A stretch of DNA of 64,000 nucleotides from Fimbriimonadaceae bacterium (GTDB lineage: Bacteria; Armatimonadota; Fimbriimonadia; Fimbriimonadales; Fimbriimonadaceae). Under the pieces are notes generated by a model, which was not told the origin of the DNA, ran no database searches, and was given only the letters and a program-made list of their open reading frames with translations. Made by a program: the position numbers and the translations under genes. Numbering within the stretch: position 1 is the first letter of the stretch; every line of letters starts with the position of its first letter. Positions 40,293 to 46,323 of this stretch are shown here, piece by piece. The stretch covers positions 1,054,001 to 1,118,000 of the forward strand of contig JABAQM010000001.1 in NCBI GenBank assembly GCA_019187105.1, in the 5' to 3' direction.

Positions 40293-41525
40293 ATGATGCC
40301 TCTGGCAGCCCATGCGGTTCGGGAGACGATCCGTCAGCAGTTTCCCGCCCTCGACCAAGAGGTGAACGGCAAGCCGCTCGTTTACCTGGACAACGCGGCC
40401 ACCACCCACCGGCCGAAAGCGGTGCTGGCTGCGATGGATGAGTTCTATACCCGGGACAACGCCAACGTCCATCGGGGCGTGCATGCCCTGAGCCAGCGAG
40501 CAACCGACCGATTCGAAGCTGCCCGCGAGGAGGTTCGGCACTTCATAAACGCCTCCGATCCGTCGGAGATCATTTTTACAAAGGGCTGCACGGAGTCGAT
40601 CAATCTTGTCGCCGGATCGTATGGCGCTTCTTTGAAGGCAGGCGACATCGTGCTCCTCAGCCATATGGAGCATCATGCCAATATCGTGCCCTGGCAGGTG
40701 GCGGCCGGCCGGGTCGGCGCAAGCGTCAAGCCGATTCCGATCACCGACGGGGGCGAGATCGACCTCGACGCCTTTGGGGGGATGCTCACGGATCGAGTCA
40801 AGGTTGTGGGCGTCAAGCACGTCTGCAACGCCATGGGCACGGTCAACCCGATCGCCCGAATCATCGAAATGGCCCATGCGGTCGGCGCGGTCGTGGTTGT
40901 GGATGGCGCCCAGGGCCTTGCCCATGCCGCGGTGGATGTCCAGGCCCTCGACGTGGATTTCTATGCCATGAGCGCCCACAAGACCTACGGCCCAATGGGC
41001 GTCGGCGCCCTTTACGGCAAGCGCGCCCTATTGGAAGCCATGCCGCCCTACCAGACAGGAGGCAGCATGATTCGCAAGGTCACTTTCGAGGAGACCACCT
41101 ATGCCGGGTTGCCTGACAAATTCGAACCGGGAACGCCCAATGTGGCCGGGGTGATCGGGTTTGGCGAAGCGTTAAAGTGGATCCGCTCGCTTGGCATCGA
41201 TGTCATTTCGGCCCATGAAGACCGCCTCCGGGATGCCGCCCACGAAGCACTTGGGCAGATTCCGGCGGTGCGTCTCATCGGCATGGCACGAGCAAAGGTC
41301 CCGGTCATCAGCTTTACGTTGGACGGCATTCATCCCCATGACGTGGGGACGGTTCTGGATTCAGAAGGGGTTGCGGTGCGAACCGGCCACCATTGCTGCA
41401 TGCCGTTGATGGAGCGGCTTGGCCTACCAGCCACCACGCGGGCCTCGTTCTCGGTTTACAACACCGAAGGCGAAGTCGCTTCCTTGGCGCGCGCAGTCAA
41501 GCGGGCCGCCGACCTCTTTCGCTAA
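40293..41525 (+). CDS. sufS: Cysteine desulfurase, SufS type
   Basis: 410 residues, PLP-dependent. NAATTHRPKAV, the PLP lysine Lys230 in AHKTYGPMGVGAL, and the persulfide Cys368 in RTGHHCCMPLM mark group II desulfurases, which supply sulfur for iron-sulfur clusters. The expected SufU or SufE partner is not adjacent. It follows metH by 9 bases and is probably cotranscribed, linking sulfur metabolism. The extra Cys369 beside the active one is slightly unusual. Confidence 0.9.
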   Translation: MMPLAAHAVRETIRQQFPALDQEVNGKPLVYLDNAATTHRPKAVLAAMDEFYTRDNANVHRGVHALSQRATDRFEAAREEVRHFINASDPSEIIFTKGCTESINLVAGSYGASLKAGDIVLLSHMEHHANIVPWQVAAGRVGASVKPIPITDGGEIDLDAFGGMLTDRVKVVGVKHVCNAMGTVNPIARIIEMAHAVGAVVVVDGAQGLAHAAVDVQALDVDFYAMSAHKTYGPMGVGALYGKRALLEAMPPYQTGGSMIRKVTFEETTYAGLPDKFEPGTPNVAGVIGFGEALKWIRSLGIDVISAHEDRLRDAAHEALGQIPAVRLIGMARAKVPVISFTLDGIHPHDVGTVLDSEGVAVRTGHHCCMPLMERLGLPATTRASFSVYNTEGEVASLARAVKRAADLFR

Positions 41526-42121
41526 ACGGCAGCCATCGGTCGGAGGCGAGAGCGAATGCGGCGTATCTGGGTCTTTACGGCTTCGGCATCCATATCCAAC
41601 CGCTGAGCCACAGACTTTAGCATCCCGTTCTCATCGGCGGAGGTCTCACCACGGAAGTACTCGAGCCAAGCGTCCCAAACCTCCGTCTGCTTGGCCGTGA
41701 GCTTCGCACGCAGAGCCTCGATTGTCTCCGCAAGCTCCGGCTCCTCTACCACTGGCATGGCCGGTTCAAAGTCCTCCGGCATCTCGGTTTCGCGTTCGCG
41801 GACTCGGCTGACGCGTCGAGCGGCGTCCTTGACCGCGGTTGCAGCGAGGAGGCGAATCTTACCGACCGCTCGCTGGAAGTCTGGTTCCACTTTGTCGAGA
41901 TGGCGCAGGAACAGGCGCCCAACCTCGGCAAACAGGTCTTCCACGGTCTCGCCTCTTGCGCCGGCTTGGAAGAGAGCGCGACGGGCATGTGCACCGAGCG
42001 CTTGCCACACGGCTTCTGTCGCTCGCGGATCGCCGGAATGAGCTAATTCGACCAGCCGGTTAAACGGCAGGGTGAGCACTTCGGCGGCTCCAATTCCTTG
42101 GTTGGCTCGAATATCGTCCAT
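41522..42121 (-). CDS. RNA polymerase sigma factor, ECF-like
   Basis: 199 residues from ATG at 42121 (MDDIRANQGIGAAEV). Sigma-2 region: GETVEDLFAEVGRLFLRHL and FQRAVGKIRLLAATAVKDAARR. Sigma-4 HTH: ENGMLKSVAQRLDMDAEAVKTQIRRIRSRLR. The order fits an extracytoplasmic-function or related sigma-70. It is the third gene of a coupled minus-strand operon after a helical protein and a 30-residue membrane peptide. The stop overlaps that of sufS. Confidence 0.75.
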   Translation of the reverse strand: MDDIRANQGIGAAEVLTLPFNRLVELAHSGDPRATEAVWQALGAHARRALFQAGARGETVEDLFAEVGRLFLRHLDKVEPDFQRAVGKIRLLAATAVKDAARRVSRVRERETEMPEDFEPAMPVVEEPELAETIEALRAKLTAKQTEVWDAWLEYFRGETSADENGMLKSVAQRLDMDAEAVKTQIRRIRSRLRPMAAV

Positions 42122-42134
42122 CGTCGTTTCCGTC

Positions 42135-42227
42135 TCAGGAGCCCGACTTCTCAACGGCCAGCACCACGTAAGGAAGCATGGCTATCGTCAGCAGGAGGCA
42201 CCGAATGAAGAGCTTGCGTAAGTTCAT
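42135..42227 (-). CDS. 30-residue membrane peptide coupled to sigma-factor gene
   Basis: A 31-codon frame: ATG overlaps the TGA of the upstream gene (ATGA), and its own TGA is 13 bases before the sigma-factor ATG. The peptide starts MNLRKLFIRC, then a hydrophobic core (LLLTIAMLPYVVLAV) and a short tail (EKSGS), giving one membrane span with a basic cytosolic start. AGGAC lies a few bases upstream. Too short for general gene callers. Possible role: regulator of the sigma factor, but this is inference. Confidence 0.55.
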   Translation of the reverse strand: MNLRKLFIRCLLLTIAMLPYVVLAVEKSGS

Positions 42228-42985
42228 GACTTCTGTCCTAGGTGGTTCTGAATTCGATCTTTCAAGTGGGCGTAGGCGTCGGACCGGTCCAGGTAGCTTC
42301 GCGTAAACCCTGAATTAATATACAGCGCTTTCGCAAGAAGTCGGTCAGCTTCTTGAACCTCGTCTCCTTCAAGCCGAACAACGGCTTCTCGAAGAAGACG
42401 CACGAGATAGTTGGCAGGGTACGCCTTGGCGTCGGTCAGCGATCTGGAAAGCCTAAAGAAGGTGGCGGCCCGGAGAAAGGCGTCGCGGCCGCCACCATCG
42501 AGGGCAAGGTCGTGGAAGTCGTCGCCGAGATTGTAGTAGTGCCTTGCCAATTCGAACCGAAGCCCATGATCGGGAATGGGCCGGATGGTGGGTGGCATGG
42601 CTTCGAGCCCGGCAAGCTGTCGCTGAAGCGAGCCGATCGCCTCAAGGCGCAGCGGAATCATCGTTTTTGGCGAGGCGCCTGCCCGTAGGCCGATTGCCTC
42701 GATGAGAATGGTCTGGTTGAAGCAATAGCCTGGCGCCGATGCCTCGACTTCGCGAGCCCAGGCTTCTGCCGACGTGCGGTCGCCGCTTCGAATCGCCTGC
42801 TGAGCGGCGTCGACCTTGGCGGCCAATGCGGGGTCGGCAAGAGGCACCCGCCAAGGATTGATTTCCTGGATGATCAGCTCGCCATAGCCGGGCTCCTGGT
42901 GAAGGAAATCGCGGTCCTCGGGCAGCAGTTGTTCGGGCCGTTCCACGGGCGTCGAGATCGGTATCTTGTCGAAGCCTTCGCTCAT
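42224..42985 (-). CDS. Helical protein of unknown function (TPR-like)
   Basis: 253 residues from ATG at 42985 (MSEGFDKIPIS). A Pro-rich start is followed by helical pairs, such as AAKVDAAQQAIRSGDRTSAEAWAREVEA and the late ADRLLAKALYINSGFTRSYL, consistent with tetratricopeptide-like repeats. No signal peptide. It overlaps the micropeptide gene (ATGA) and thus heads an operon with the sigma factor. A partner or regulator is possible. Confidence 0.65.
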   Translation of the reverse strand: MSEGFDKIPISTPVERPEQLLPEDRDFLHQEPGYGELIIQEINPWRVPLADPALAAKVDAAQQAIRSGDRTSAEAWAREVEASAPGYCFNQTILIEAIGLRAGASPKTMIPLRLEAIGSLQRQLAGLEAMPPTIRPIPDHGLRFELARHYYNLGDDFHDLALDGGGRDAFLRAATFFRLSRSLTDAKAYPANYLVRLLREAVVRLEGDEVQEADRLLAKALYINSGFTRSYLDRSDAYAHLKDRIQNHLGQKS

Positions 42986-43115
42986 GCTTGGTAACGAACC
43001 GCTGCCTGTCACCAAAACCGGGGTCAGTTCCGCGGGCCTTTTTAGACAGTCGCGAGGCGTGCCCGTCATTTTCGTCAAGCAATTTCGACGAACCTGTGAC
43101 CATAAAATAGGCATC

Positions 43116-44210
43116 ATGCTCTCGATTCTTGTCGCCCCGTTATTCGCCTACGCACCGGCCGGTTGCCTTTGCTGCGCGATGCTGCCGCAGGAGCGCACGC
43201 CGGGCGGATGGCCAAAGGGCCAGCCCGATTCGGCGCCAATCGCGCTGCATTCCGAGGAGATCAACTTCGATCAGGTCCGACAGCTGACATTTGGGGGCCA
43301 GAACGCCGAAGCCTATTGGAGCCAGGACGGCAAGAAGATCATCTTCCAGTCGCGACAGGAGGGCTATCCCGATGAGCAGATCTTCACGATGAGTGCGGAT
43401 GGCTCCAAGAAAACGCTGGTGAGCACCGGCAAAGGCCGTTGCACCTGCGGATACTGGTCGCCAGACGGCAAGAAGATCTTCTTCAGCAGCACCCACACGA
43501 AAAACGAGGGAGCCCAGCCGCCGGTGGACATGTCCAAGGGCTACGTTTGGATGGTGAATCCGCAGTTCTCCCTCTACACCGCCAATGCCGACGGGTCGGA
43601 CAAGAAGGTCGTGATCGACAAGAACCAGTACGTGGCCGAAACAACCGTCAGTCCGGACGGCAAGTGGCTTTACTTCACCGGCGGATTCGAAAACGATCTC
43701 GAGATCTACCGCGCCAAGATCGACGGCAGCGGAATCGAGCGCATGACGAACGAAGTCGGCTACGACGGCGGACCATTCGTGTCGTGGGATGGAAAGAAGA
43801 TCGTCTACCGCCGCGCCGGGTTGGCATCAGAAGAGGCCAAGAACGACTATCTGGAGCTGTTCAAGCAGCATCTCGTTCGCCCGAGCAAGCTCGAAATCTG
43901 GATCATGGACGCGGACGGAAGGAACCGCCGGCAAGTGACTTCGCTGAATGCCGCGTCGTTTGCGCCGTTCCTTCACCCCGACGGCAAGCGCATTATCTTC
44001 AGCTCGAACTTTGGCGATCCGAAGGGCCGAGAGTTCGATCTGTTCATGATCGATACCGATGGCAAGAATCTCCGCCGCATCACCCACACGCCTGAGTTCG
44101 ACGGCTTCCCCATGTTCTCGAAGGACGGCAAGCGCTTGGTCTGGGCATCGAACCGGAACGGCAAAGTCCGAGGAGAGACCAATATCTTCGTCGCCGACTG
44201 GGTCGACTAA
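43116..44210 (+). CDS. Secreted TolB-like beta-propeller (PD40 repeats)
   Basis: 364 residues from ATG at 43116. Signal peptide (LSILVAPLFAYAPAG, with a Cys cluster CLCCAM that could be lipidated). Then TolB/PD40 blades, each with an S-PDGK-type turn: WSQDGKKIIFQS, WSPDGKKIFFSS, VSPDGKWLYFTG, LHPDGKRIIFSS and FSKDGKRLVWAS. Probable extracytoplasmic propeller of unknown ligand. Faces the sigma-factor operon divergently. Confidence 0.85.
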   Translation: MLSILVAPLFAYAPAGCLCCAMLPQERTPGGWPKGQPDSAPIALHSEEINFDQVRQLTFGGQNAEAYWSQDGKKIIFQSRQEGYPDEQIFTMSADGSKKTLVSTGKGRCTCGYWSPDGKKIFFSSTHTKNEGAQPPVDMSKGYVWMVNPQFSLYTANADGSDKKVVIDKNQYVAETTVSPDGKWLYFTGGFENDLEIYRAKIDGSGIERMTNEVGYDGGPFVSWDGKKIVYRRAGLASEEAKNDYLELFKQHLVRPSKLEIWIMDADGRNRRQVTSLNAASFAPFLHPDGKRIIFSSNFGDPKGREFDLFMIDTDGKNLRRITHTPEFDGFPMFSKDGKRLVWASNRNGKVRGETNIFVADWVD

Positions 44211-44809
44211 CCACTCAGCAGAACATAGAGCAGCACGCCGGCTATGACGAGGTTGTAGGTGGCGTGCTTCCATGTCGAGTGCCTGATGCCGCCGCCAAGA
44301 TAGGCCTGAGTCAGCCACATGCCCGTAATCGCCAGGGCCAGACAAAACGCTATCGGGACGCCCACCCCGGCGTGGGCGATTCCAAATTTGAGACTCTTGC
44401 CGACGCCCTGGCCGAGACTTTTCGTGCCGTCCCGAAAGACATACTCCTCCCACCTTGCGAGGCGAGGAATATTGAATGCAAGCAGGAGAACGAAGACGAT
44501 GCCAATCCAAGGTATGGCGGCTCCGCCCGAGATGAGCGATCGTGGTGTTTCACGCTCCTCGGGCGTGGAGATGAGCTGAAGCCAGCTGAACTGCGCGACA
44601 GCGCCGCCATAGATATAAAGTACGGTGCCTACCGTGCCGACCAGTGCCAGCACGAGGAGAGTTTCCGCAAGCACGCCCACCCACTCAATCGGCGTCCGAC
44701 GGGCGAACACGGACCAGTAGCGCTTCCACCTTCGTTCCTTGATCGGCAGCAAGAGCGACCATCCCGCATAGGCCAAAAAGGCATACTGGATCACGGTCAA
44801 TACGGTCAT
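44207..44809 (-). CDS. Integral membrane protein coupled to an ABC permease gene
   Basis: 200 residues. Hydrophobic segments: VIQYAFLAYAGWSLLLP, VLAETLLVLALVGTVGTVLYI, IPWIGIVFVLLLAFNI, GVPIAFCLALAITGMWL and NLVIAGVLLYVLL. The ATG overlaps the TGA of the permease gene (ATGA). No family recognised; being coupled to a transporter it may be an accessory membrane subunit. Confidence 0.65.
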   Translation of the reverse strand: MTVLTVIQYAFLAYAGWSLLLPIKERRWKRYWSVFARRTPIEWVGVLAETLLVLALVGTVGTVLYIYGGAVAQFSWLQLISTPEERETPRSLISGGAAIPWIGIVFVLLLAFNIPRLARWEEYVFRDGTKSLGQGVGKSLKFGIAHAGVGVPIAFCLALAITGMWLTQAYLGGGIRHSTWKHATYNLVIAGVLLYVLLSG

Positions 44810-46323
44810 CGTTCACCGGGAAGAATGATGCCGCGCATGATGACCCGCTGAGCCAAGAGGAACACGATGAGCGTGGGAAGGGCAGCGATGGTCAGGGCGG
44901 CGAAAATGACCGCCTTTGGCGCGCTTTGCTGCATCTGATAGATCCACACCATCAGCGTCCACATACGCCGGTCCTGAGCCACGAGGAAGGCATACATGAA
45001 GGCGCCATACGCGCTCATGAAGGCAATCAGCGAAATATAGCCGAGCACCGGCTTGCTGAGCGGGAGGGCGATCTTCCACAGCATCGTGCCTTCTCTCGCG
45101 CCGTCGATTTGGCCGCTCTCGAAGAGCTCGGCCGGCAGCGAATCGAAAAAGCCCTTCAGGAGGTAGATCATGTAGCCTGAGGCCGCCGTTGGAAGAACGA
45201 GGGCGGCGAAGGTATTGAGCAGGCCGAGATCCTTCAGCAGCAAGAAGGATGGGATCATCGCGACCTCGGCCGGAAAGGCCATCGTGGCGAGCAGGAACAG
45301 GAGGATCTTCGCCGTTGCCGGCATATGGAATCTCGAGAGGGCGTATGCGGCGAGCGGATTGACGATCAAGTGGGTGAGAACGGCGAGACCGCAGAAGATA
45401 ACGGTGTTGAGAACGGCCCTACCCTGGACCAGGATGTAGTCCAGCACATAGCGGTAGTTCCTGGTCGCGAACTCCCGCTTCAGGGCAGGCGCCTCGGCGG
45501 CGAGAATCGTCCGCTCGAAAGCCTCGATCGGTAGGGGTCCGCCGAACCGTCTCTCCGGCCAATCCTTGGCGAAGCGGGGATGGAGCGACACCCGCTCGAA
45601 CTCCGCCAATGCGTCGCCGCCAAGGGGAAGGGCCACGGTTTCAAAAGTCTTCGCATTGCCGCGCACGTCAGCGGGAACCGTGGAGAACTGATTCTCGTGC
45701 CGACCGCGCAACCATTCCTGAAAAAGGCGCTGTTTGGCAATCGGAATGCGCAGCTCGGCCGGGAGGCTCTGCTTAAACTCGAGCCATTCGCTCCACTTTC
45801 GCCCCTCGACTGGCTTCCAGTTTCTTCGATCGAACCACTCGACTGGTGGCACGACGGTCTGGAACGACGTGTTTTCCTCCAGATAGGCGATATTCAAGTC
45901 CCGGATTCGGAGGTATCGCGTTCTGAGCCACGCCTGATACTCCATCGCCAGCCGACCGGTCACCTGGTTTCCGGCGGTCCTGAACCCCGCCACCCACCAA
46001 TCCAAGGGCAGCTCCATCAGCCAGCGGCTATAGTCATCAACGCGGTCCGCCGCCTGCTGACCAGTGCGGGTCGCGGCGATCAAGCTCAGGTCGCCCGCGT
46101 ATTTATCATTCAAGTATTTTTCGAAAAGCTTATCGTTGTCGCCAAAGTAAGCCGGCACGATTCGGTTTTCGTTCTGGTCGGTGGGCCCGGTCAGGCTCGT
46201 TCCAACCATCAGGAGAAACGGGTACAGCGTGGTCACTGCCCCGACGATGAGAATGGCATAGACCAGCGCCATTGCAAGCCTTGCCCTCCATCGCCTCCTT
46301 CCGACCTTTCCAACCAGTGGCAT
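44806..46323 (-). CDS. Carbohydrate ABC transporter permease (MalG-like) with large insertion
   Basis: 505 residues, against about 280 usual for MalG-type permeases. Helix 1 (ALVYAILIVGAVTTLYPFLL) is followed by about 270 polar, Trp- and Arg-rich residues that should lie outside the membrane. The normal core follows: VFCGLAVLTHLIV-type helices, then the EAA loop ELFESGQIDGAREGTMLWKIALPLSKP (in two parts) and the last helices. No binding protein, partner permease or ATPase is adjacent. The insert could replace a binding protein or contact one. Confidence 0.82.
   Translation of the reverse strand: MPLVGKVGRRRWRARLAMALVYAILIVGAVTTLYPFLLMVGTSLTGPTDQNENRIVPAYFGDNDKLFEKYLNDKYAGDLSLIAATRTGQQAADRVDDYSRWLMELPLDWWVAGFRTAGNQVTGRLAMEYQAWLRTRYLRIRDLNIAYLEENTSFQTVVPPVEWFDRRNWKPVEGRKWSEWLEFKQSLPAELRIPIAKQRLFQEWLRGRHENQFSTVPADVRGNAKTFETVALPLGGDALAEFERVSLHPRFAKDWPERRFGGPLPIEAFERTILAAEAPALKREFATRNYRYVLDYILVQGRAVLNTVIFCGLAVLTHLIVNPLAAYALSRFHMPATAKILLFLLATMAFPAEVAMIPSFLLLKDLGLLNTFAALVLPTAASGYMIYLLKGFFDSLPAELFESGQIDGAREGTMLWKIALPLSKPVLGYISLIAFMSAYGAFMYAFLVAQDRRMWTLMVWIYQMQQSAPKAVIFAALTIAALPTLIVFLLAQRVIMRGIILPGER

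Follow-up and report, generated by a model that had tools for sequence, protein, structure and literature searches.

In our judgement, a 30-codon frame lying between a gene for a helical protein and a gene for a sigma-like protein in a Fimbriimonadaceae genome is probably translated and, going by its sequence, a real gene for a small membrane protein. What sets the frame apart is its content: its hydropathy is seldom reached by chance, whereas its geometry is ordinary. The product would be a translationally coupled, single-span membrane protein of 30 residues with its N-terminus inside and about six residues outside. The frame would be the middle gene of a unit that starts with a TPR-like protein and ends with an ECF-like sigma factor. 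The window analysed is a stretch of 64,000 nucleotides (1054001-1118000 of contig 1) in a genome of 3.3 Mb; coordinates below are those of the window.

Layout of the unit and features of the frame

Read from the sequence, the 30-codon frame MNLRKLFIRCLLLTIAMLPYVVLAVEKSGS occupies 42227..42135 on the minus strand. Along that strand the order is a 253-aa helical protein (42985..42224), the 30-codon frame and a 199-aa sigma-like protein (42121..41522). The ATG of the peptide shares the letters ATGA with the TGA stop of the upstream gene, its own TGA is found at 42137-42135, and after another 13 nt the sigma-like ATG follows at 42121. A preliminary description of this DNA had given the location, the ATGA overlap and the 13-base spacing exactly. 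The features are as follows.

42224..42985, minus strand: first gene of the unit, a 253-aa all-helical, TPR-like, apparently soluble orphan protein (P0003), based on codon use and a structural model
42236..42239, minus strand: AGGA, 8 nt ahead of the ATG of the peptide and possibly its ribosome-binding site, read from the sequence
42135..42227, minus strand: 30-codon frame with a basic N-terminus, one hydrophobic span and a signal-peptide-like VLA/VEKSGS end, based on hydropathy and codon use
42129..42131, minus strand: GGA, 7 nt ahead of the ATG of the sigma-like gene and a weak candidate for its ribosome-binding site, read from the sequence
41522..42121, minus strand: last gene of the unit, a 199-aa divergent ECF-sigma-like protein (P0002), based on TIGR02937 and a region-4 fold

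The basic start and single hydrophobic span described earlier are borne out: R4, K5 and R9 precede a span with a best hydropathy of 2.19 over 17 residues and 2.28 over 19. With its 30 residues and one span, the short frame falls within the size of small membrane proteins (under about 60 aa), and neither Pfam nor NCBIfam contains a family that matches it. According to the positive-inside rule, basic residues before a span place the N-terminus inside and the C-terminus outside. Since the three basic residues lie before the span and almost no net charge is present after it, this orientation is predicted for the peptide. By eye, VLA before VEKSGS looks like a signal-peptidase site, and cleavage with release of the hexapeptide is possible. 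Ribosomes ending the TPR-like gene would restart at the overlapping ATG, and the peptide would therefore be made in step with the helical protein.

Geometry and content compared with chance

Genes were called with our own codon-score script over 285 kb, comprising the window and 12 further stretches of the same genome, trimmed for overlap. The counts depend on this script and on its choice of starts, which favoured ribosome-site matches. Both flanking genes were within the codon training set; the peptide was outside it.

The preliminary description held that an overlap on one side and tight spacing on the other are hard to explain by chance. This argument is weak, because small frames near upstream stops and -4 overlaps are both common in the genome. 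A -4 overlap is present in 23 of 167 co-directional gene pairs. Gaps of 60-300 nt occur in 45 pairs, and in 19 of these, the peptide's gap included, a small frame lies near the upstream stop (at least 20 codons, start at -5 to +40 of that stop, end by the next start; 24 frames listed). One of them, L082 (gap after 9555, plus strand), is nearly identical in layout: a 40-codon frame with its ATG at -4 that ends 3 nt before the next gene. Its hydropathy is only 0.47 and its codon use neutral, which means that it has the geometry of the peptide without the coding content. In random DNA of 57% GC that is given an ATGA start, at least 28 open codons ending inside the gap are found in 8.7% of trials, against 0.0075% for an open frame that also has the peptide's hydropathy.

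Hydropathy separates the frame from these backgrounds. The next-highest value among the 23 other listed small frames is 1.04, compared to 2.19 for the peptide. None of 142 real intergenic frames of 25-40 codons reaches 2.19 (two reach 1.6). The value is attained by 19 of 26,591 frames in Markov-resampled intergenic DNA, by 36 of 11,712 resampled frames with the composition of the gap itself and by 3 of 2,215 out-of-frame frames inside genes. For the N-terminal 30-residue stretches of called genes the count is 11 of 213, as expected of signal and membrane segments.

The codon score of the peptide (0.144 nats per codon) ranks at the 44th percentile of true 30-codon segments and at the 99.2th percentile of shifted ones. 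Taken alone the score is not unique, as one of the 23 other small frames scores higher. This frame, L079 (gap after 15891, plus strand), is a 21-codon TTG frame in a 103-nt gap and has, at 0.23, the best codon score among the sampled small frames. When the score is slid along the three minus-strand frames, the signal leaves the helical frame for that of the peptide and finally continues in that of the sigma-like gene. The handover is blurred: over its final 30 codons the helical gene scores neutral (-0.008), and around 42424-42388 a third frame scores at least as high as the helical frame. As to the start region, a ribosome-site match of at least 4 is seen at 42% of the 213 called starts against 23% of control places. 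The AGGA is therefore weak evidence, given that such matches are modestly commoner at called starts and that the choice of starts favoured them. The start region of the peptide is cheaper to open than in 91% of the 213 genes.

Composition, codon use and start region support a one-span peptide within a three-gene unit. The membrane micropeptide proposed earlier thus stands as a prediction on these grounds, while overlap and spacing drop out as reasons for it. The opposite reading, in which the frame is not a gene at all, having either arisen by chance or been left behind by a lost membrane or secreted protein, seems unlikely. Position and openness of the frame are ordinary, as the gap counts indicate, and no conservation was seen in the genomes searched (see below). 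Moreover, by our own estimate roughly 0.2-0.9 such hydrophobic frames are expected by chance genome-wide, calculated from 0.07-0.3% per frame and the 24 frames listed in 45 gaps of 285 kb. The ATG overlap, the codon use and the open start, however, would in our judgement lower the chance well below that figure.

A further possibility is that the span constitutes the C-terminal membrane tail of the helical protein, separated from it by a programmed slip, a recent mutation or a sequence error. The span resembles a tail anchor in its basic, hydrophobic and short-ended make-up, P0003 has no span of its own and ends in the neutral codons mentioned above, and the peptide frame remains open for 29 codons upstream of its ATG. 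Codon use in these 29 codons is, however, not gene-like (-0.24 per codon), and any frame change would therefore have to lie close to the junction. No obvious slippery heptamer is visible there by eye, ATGA with AGGA fits a restart better, and inner stops are absent from all 34 rows of the sigma search in the own genome. Of the readings considered, we regard this one as the least probable.

Only slightly more credit is due to the idea that the frame is translated solely so that ribosomes from the helical gene reach the sigma start, its product being irrelevant; we consider this quite improbable. The upstream overlap fits such a spacer, as do the 13 nt and the weak GGA that precede the sigma-like gene. 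Also in its favour is the pairing of the sigma start within a fold of the surrounding 61 nt (-16.5 kcal/mol, z -0.76). Against it, a spacer has no need of strong hydrophobicity, and the sigma start is not strongly closed: its opening cost in context lies at the 24th percentile of the 213 genes, and the 156-nt RNA region folds less well than 193 of 200 shuffles. A leader-peptide attenuator was considered as well and is not supported, given this poor folding and the outcome of a search of 41300-43400, where no promoter-like or terminator-like sites were found (shuffles give 0.5 and 2.1, respectively).

Partner proteins, neighbourhood and relatives

The upstream protein P0003 shows gene-like codon use from ATG 42985 (the gene being in the training set); an extension to 43117 is not gene-like. 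Its AlphaFold2 model, made without an alignment, has a pLDDT of 56.9, with block means of 63-82 over residues 51-180. The folds most like it are those of TPR proteins (E 2e-3 or weaker, low TM-scores), so the helical protein of the preliminary description holds in the form of a weak TPR-like model. Pfam and NCBIfam gave no match over cut-off for P0003 and no anti-sigma family at E up to 1. A hydrophobic span was not found in it (best 17-residue hydropathy 0.90).

For P0002 the family match is TIGR02937 (25.3 bits, E 1e-5), which stays under the curated cut-off of 42.9, and Pfam yields no sigma family at E up to 1. The 11 extra codons of a start at TTG 42154 lack gene-like codon use, which makes ATG 42121 the likelier start. 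The single-sequence model has a pLDDT of 60.3 overall. Block values are 68-88 over residues 131-190 and at most 66 over residues 1-130, the part considered for a region-2 core-binding fold, and the N-terminal part of the model is uncertain. Mostly over residues about 120-199, the model aligns with sigma region-4 domains of solved structures at Z 7.9-9.4, values which, as the comparison tool warns, can reflect a common helical arrangement. Among the 50 chains listed, 48 are sigma factors or their complexes; the other two belong to the light-activated regulator EL222, which means that this fold is not unique to sigma factors. Given that EL222 scores alike and that the tool issues this warning, the sigma assignment is carried by the TIGR02937 match. 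The best Foldseek match overall is E. coli sigma-E (1or7, E 0.03), and sequence searches of structure databases returned nothing meaningful, neither a sigma factor nor a TPR protein (best E 0.2). Hydropathy reveals no membrane span in P0002. To call this protein a sigma factor, as was done at first, is reasonable in view of the family match and the region-4-like helix-turn-helix; it should be added that the protein is divergent, under the cut-off and passed over by Pfam.

The unit lies between genes of common families. Tail to tail with P0002 is a gene that we take by eye to be SufS-like, overlapping the sigma-like gene by 4 nt (41522..41525), and back to back with P0003 is one that we take, likewise by eye, to be TolB-like. 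Both are widespread (SufS in 33 and the TolB-like gene in 37 of 41 genomes, own included). Around 30 of the 33 SufS matches, where flanks of up to 1.5 kb were inspected, no relative of P0003 or P0002 was present except in the own-genome copy. The TolB/WD40-like protein (43116..44210, plus strand) diverges from the unit and its first residues look hydrophobic and leader-like; 22 of its 36 other matches begin at residue 30 or later. Beyond it, a 505-aa frame resembling a transporter permease and a 200-aa membrane frame, both named by eye, overlap by 4 nt (44207..46323, minus strand).

Homologues were sought in genome sets that, own genome included, counted 85 (family) for the peptide and 61, 85 and 291 for P0003 and P0002. 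The 84 other family genomes, none of the same genus, contained no homologue of the peptide, with just three chance-level rows at E 0.44-0.58. A search of 290 other genomes from the phylum returned nothing for P0003 at E 0.001; within the family, 22 of the 84 other genomes gave rows at E 0.025 or higher, which resemble chance hits and were set aside. At E 5e-4, P0002 has remote matches in three of the 290 other phylum genomes (26-30% identity, E 1.6e-4 to 4.2e-4) and one paralogue in its own genome; in some genomes this search scored part of the candidates (in the rows shown, 11 of up to 18). When the limit is relaxed to E 0.1, 22 of the 84 other family genomes have matches to P0002, which is no surprise for so large a protein family. 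Two contig collections gave no match for P0003 or P0002. Altogether, the genome sets searched held no usable orthologue of any of the three, and the unit looks like an orphan in the phylum.

The own genome has 34 sigma-family rows, of which 25 are over the cut-off, two of these in one frame. We scanned 30 of the 34 rows, the peptide's included (L134 and L135 being one frame), leaving upstream frames in the sigma gene's own reading frame uncounted. In the 29 other rows (of 33 others), no short hydrophobic frame abuts the sigma gene upstream in another reading frame. Upstream of L139 there are hydrophobic frames of 40 and 42 codons with a codon score of -0.01, ending 43 nt before the first possible sigma start, and at L121 and L132 hydrophobic frames start at least 176 nt downstream of the sigma-like gene. 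Among 21 remote sigma-like loci (L099 and L104 were left out on account of inner stops), six have a hydrophobic frame nearby (L092, L093, L094, L095, L103 and L109). The one at L093 is the end of a 458-aa membrane-protein frame.

Possible role and known systems

From its position we infer that the peptide most likely anchors the TPR-like protein to the membrane or assists it there, and that the sigma factor would be held or released through that protein. As the best explanation we put this forward tentatively; translation, topology and partnership are predictions, and the control of the sigma factor is a guess. The observations underneath it are the frame, its overlap, hydropathy and codon use, and the weak family and fold matches. 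In its favour are the hydropathy, codon use, AGGA and open start of the frame, the lack of a membrane span in P0003 and P0002 themselves, and a precedent in B. subtilis. Several points argue against it: conservation evidence is lacking, the peptide and P0003 being without homologues in the genomes searched; the other 29 sigma rows scanned have no abutting hydrophobic frame; P0003 matches no anti-sigma family in Pfam or NCBIfam; and the sigma gene is last in the unit, unlike in sigM-yhdL-yhdK.

The latter system is the precedent. The anti-sigma complex of B. subtilis sigma-M is described as two membrane proteins from one operon, where YhdL binds the sigma factor and YhdK is needed for full activity (PMC6827917). 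Similarly, the ECF-like sigma factor here shares a unit with two other genes, at least one of which encodes a predicted membrane protein, possibly an accessory one. Compared by description, the differences are that the sigma gene comes last, that the larger partner has no membrane span, so that the partners are not both membrane proteins, and that the peptide has only 30 aa. If it is an anchor or helper, the peptide would resemble YhdK in its accessory role beside YhdL, as that account presents it (PMC6827917).

The preliminary description also suggested a small anti-sigma factor, which is poorly supported. Class I (ASDI) anti-sigma domains are reported to average 101 +/- 33 residues, in a set that omitted domains of less than 50 residues as possible class II, and about 65% of class I factors are reported to carry at least one membrane helix (PMC7406223). 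The peptide is like these factors in being co-encoded with an ECF-like sigma factor; unlike them, it has no room, at 30 aa in total, for a domain of about 100 residues. With about nine cytosolic residues, too few for a class I domain, the peptide alone is unlikely to hold the sigma factor, and a stand-alone anti-sigma role is unlikely. As to the other role proposed in that description, keeping the sigma factor at the membrane, the evidence speaks neither for it nor against it.

An arrangement in two parts may be imagined as well: a minimal split anti-sigma or sigma-anchoring device, in which overlapping genes would supply, in a constant ratio, a TPR-like protein that is soluble and an anchor of 30 residues, the two together tethering the divergent ECF sigma factor to the membrane. 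We think this improbable. If true, none of the co-encoded anti-sigma parts in the papers cited here would come near the small size of its membrane component. ECF sigma factors with a TPR-rich C-terminal extension have been described (PMC8999054), and in the present unit a sigma-like protein likewise adjoins a TPR-like one; unlike there, the TPR-like part is a separate upstream gene, linked by position only. The literature searched offered no direct parallel for a membrane peptide of 30 residues that acts on a sigma factor, an absence limited to that search.

Small membrane proteins such as KdpF and MgrB are reported to carry signal-sequence features in some cases (PMC10903887). Like KdpF, CydX and MgrB as treated in that source, the peptide is small, has one span, resembles a signal sequence and lies in an apparent operon with possible partners. 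Unlike these, it is a candidate predicted from sequence, with no family match or relatives in the libraries and genomes searched. This likeness, together with an orphan-like unit as would be seen for a young or fast-changing gene, also suits a translated small membrane protein unconnected with the control of sigma, which would owe its place in the operon to history: a membrane or stress peptide of general function, or a de novo gene of recent origin. Codon use and hydropathy fit this equally well; the tight coupling to the preceding gene and a sigma-like gene 13 nt further on speak against it. On balance it is rather unlikely, yet it has more in its favour than the other alternatives discussed.

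As it stands, the frame is one candidate small membrane protein without known relatives, of an ordinary kind in a suggestive place. It illustrates that small genes are not identified by overlap and spacing alone but can be by their hydropathy and codon use compared to a local null. Should the peptide be made and act on the neighbouring sigma factor, this would amount to membrane control of a sigma factor by a 30-residue part that annotation pipelines would probably skip.
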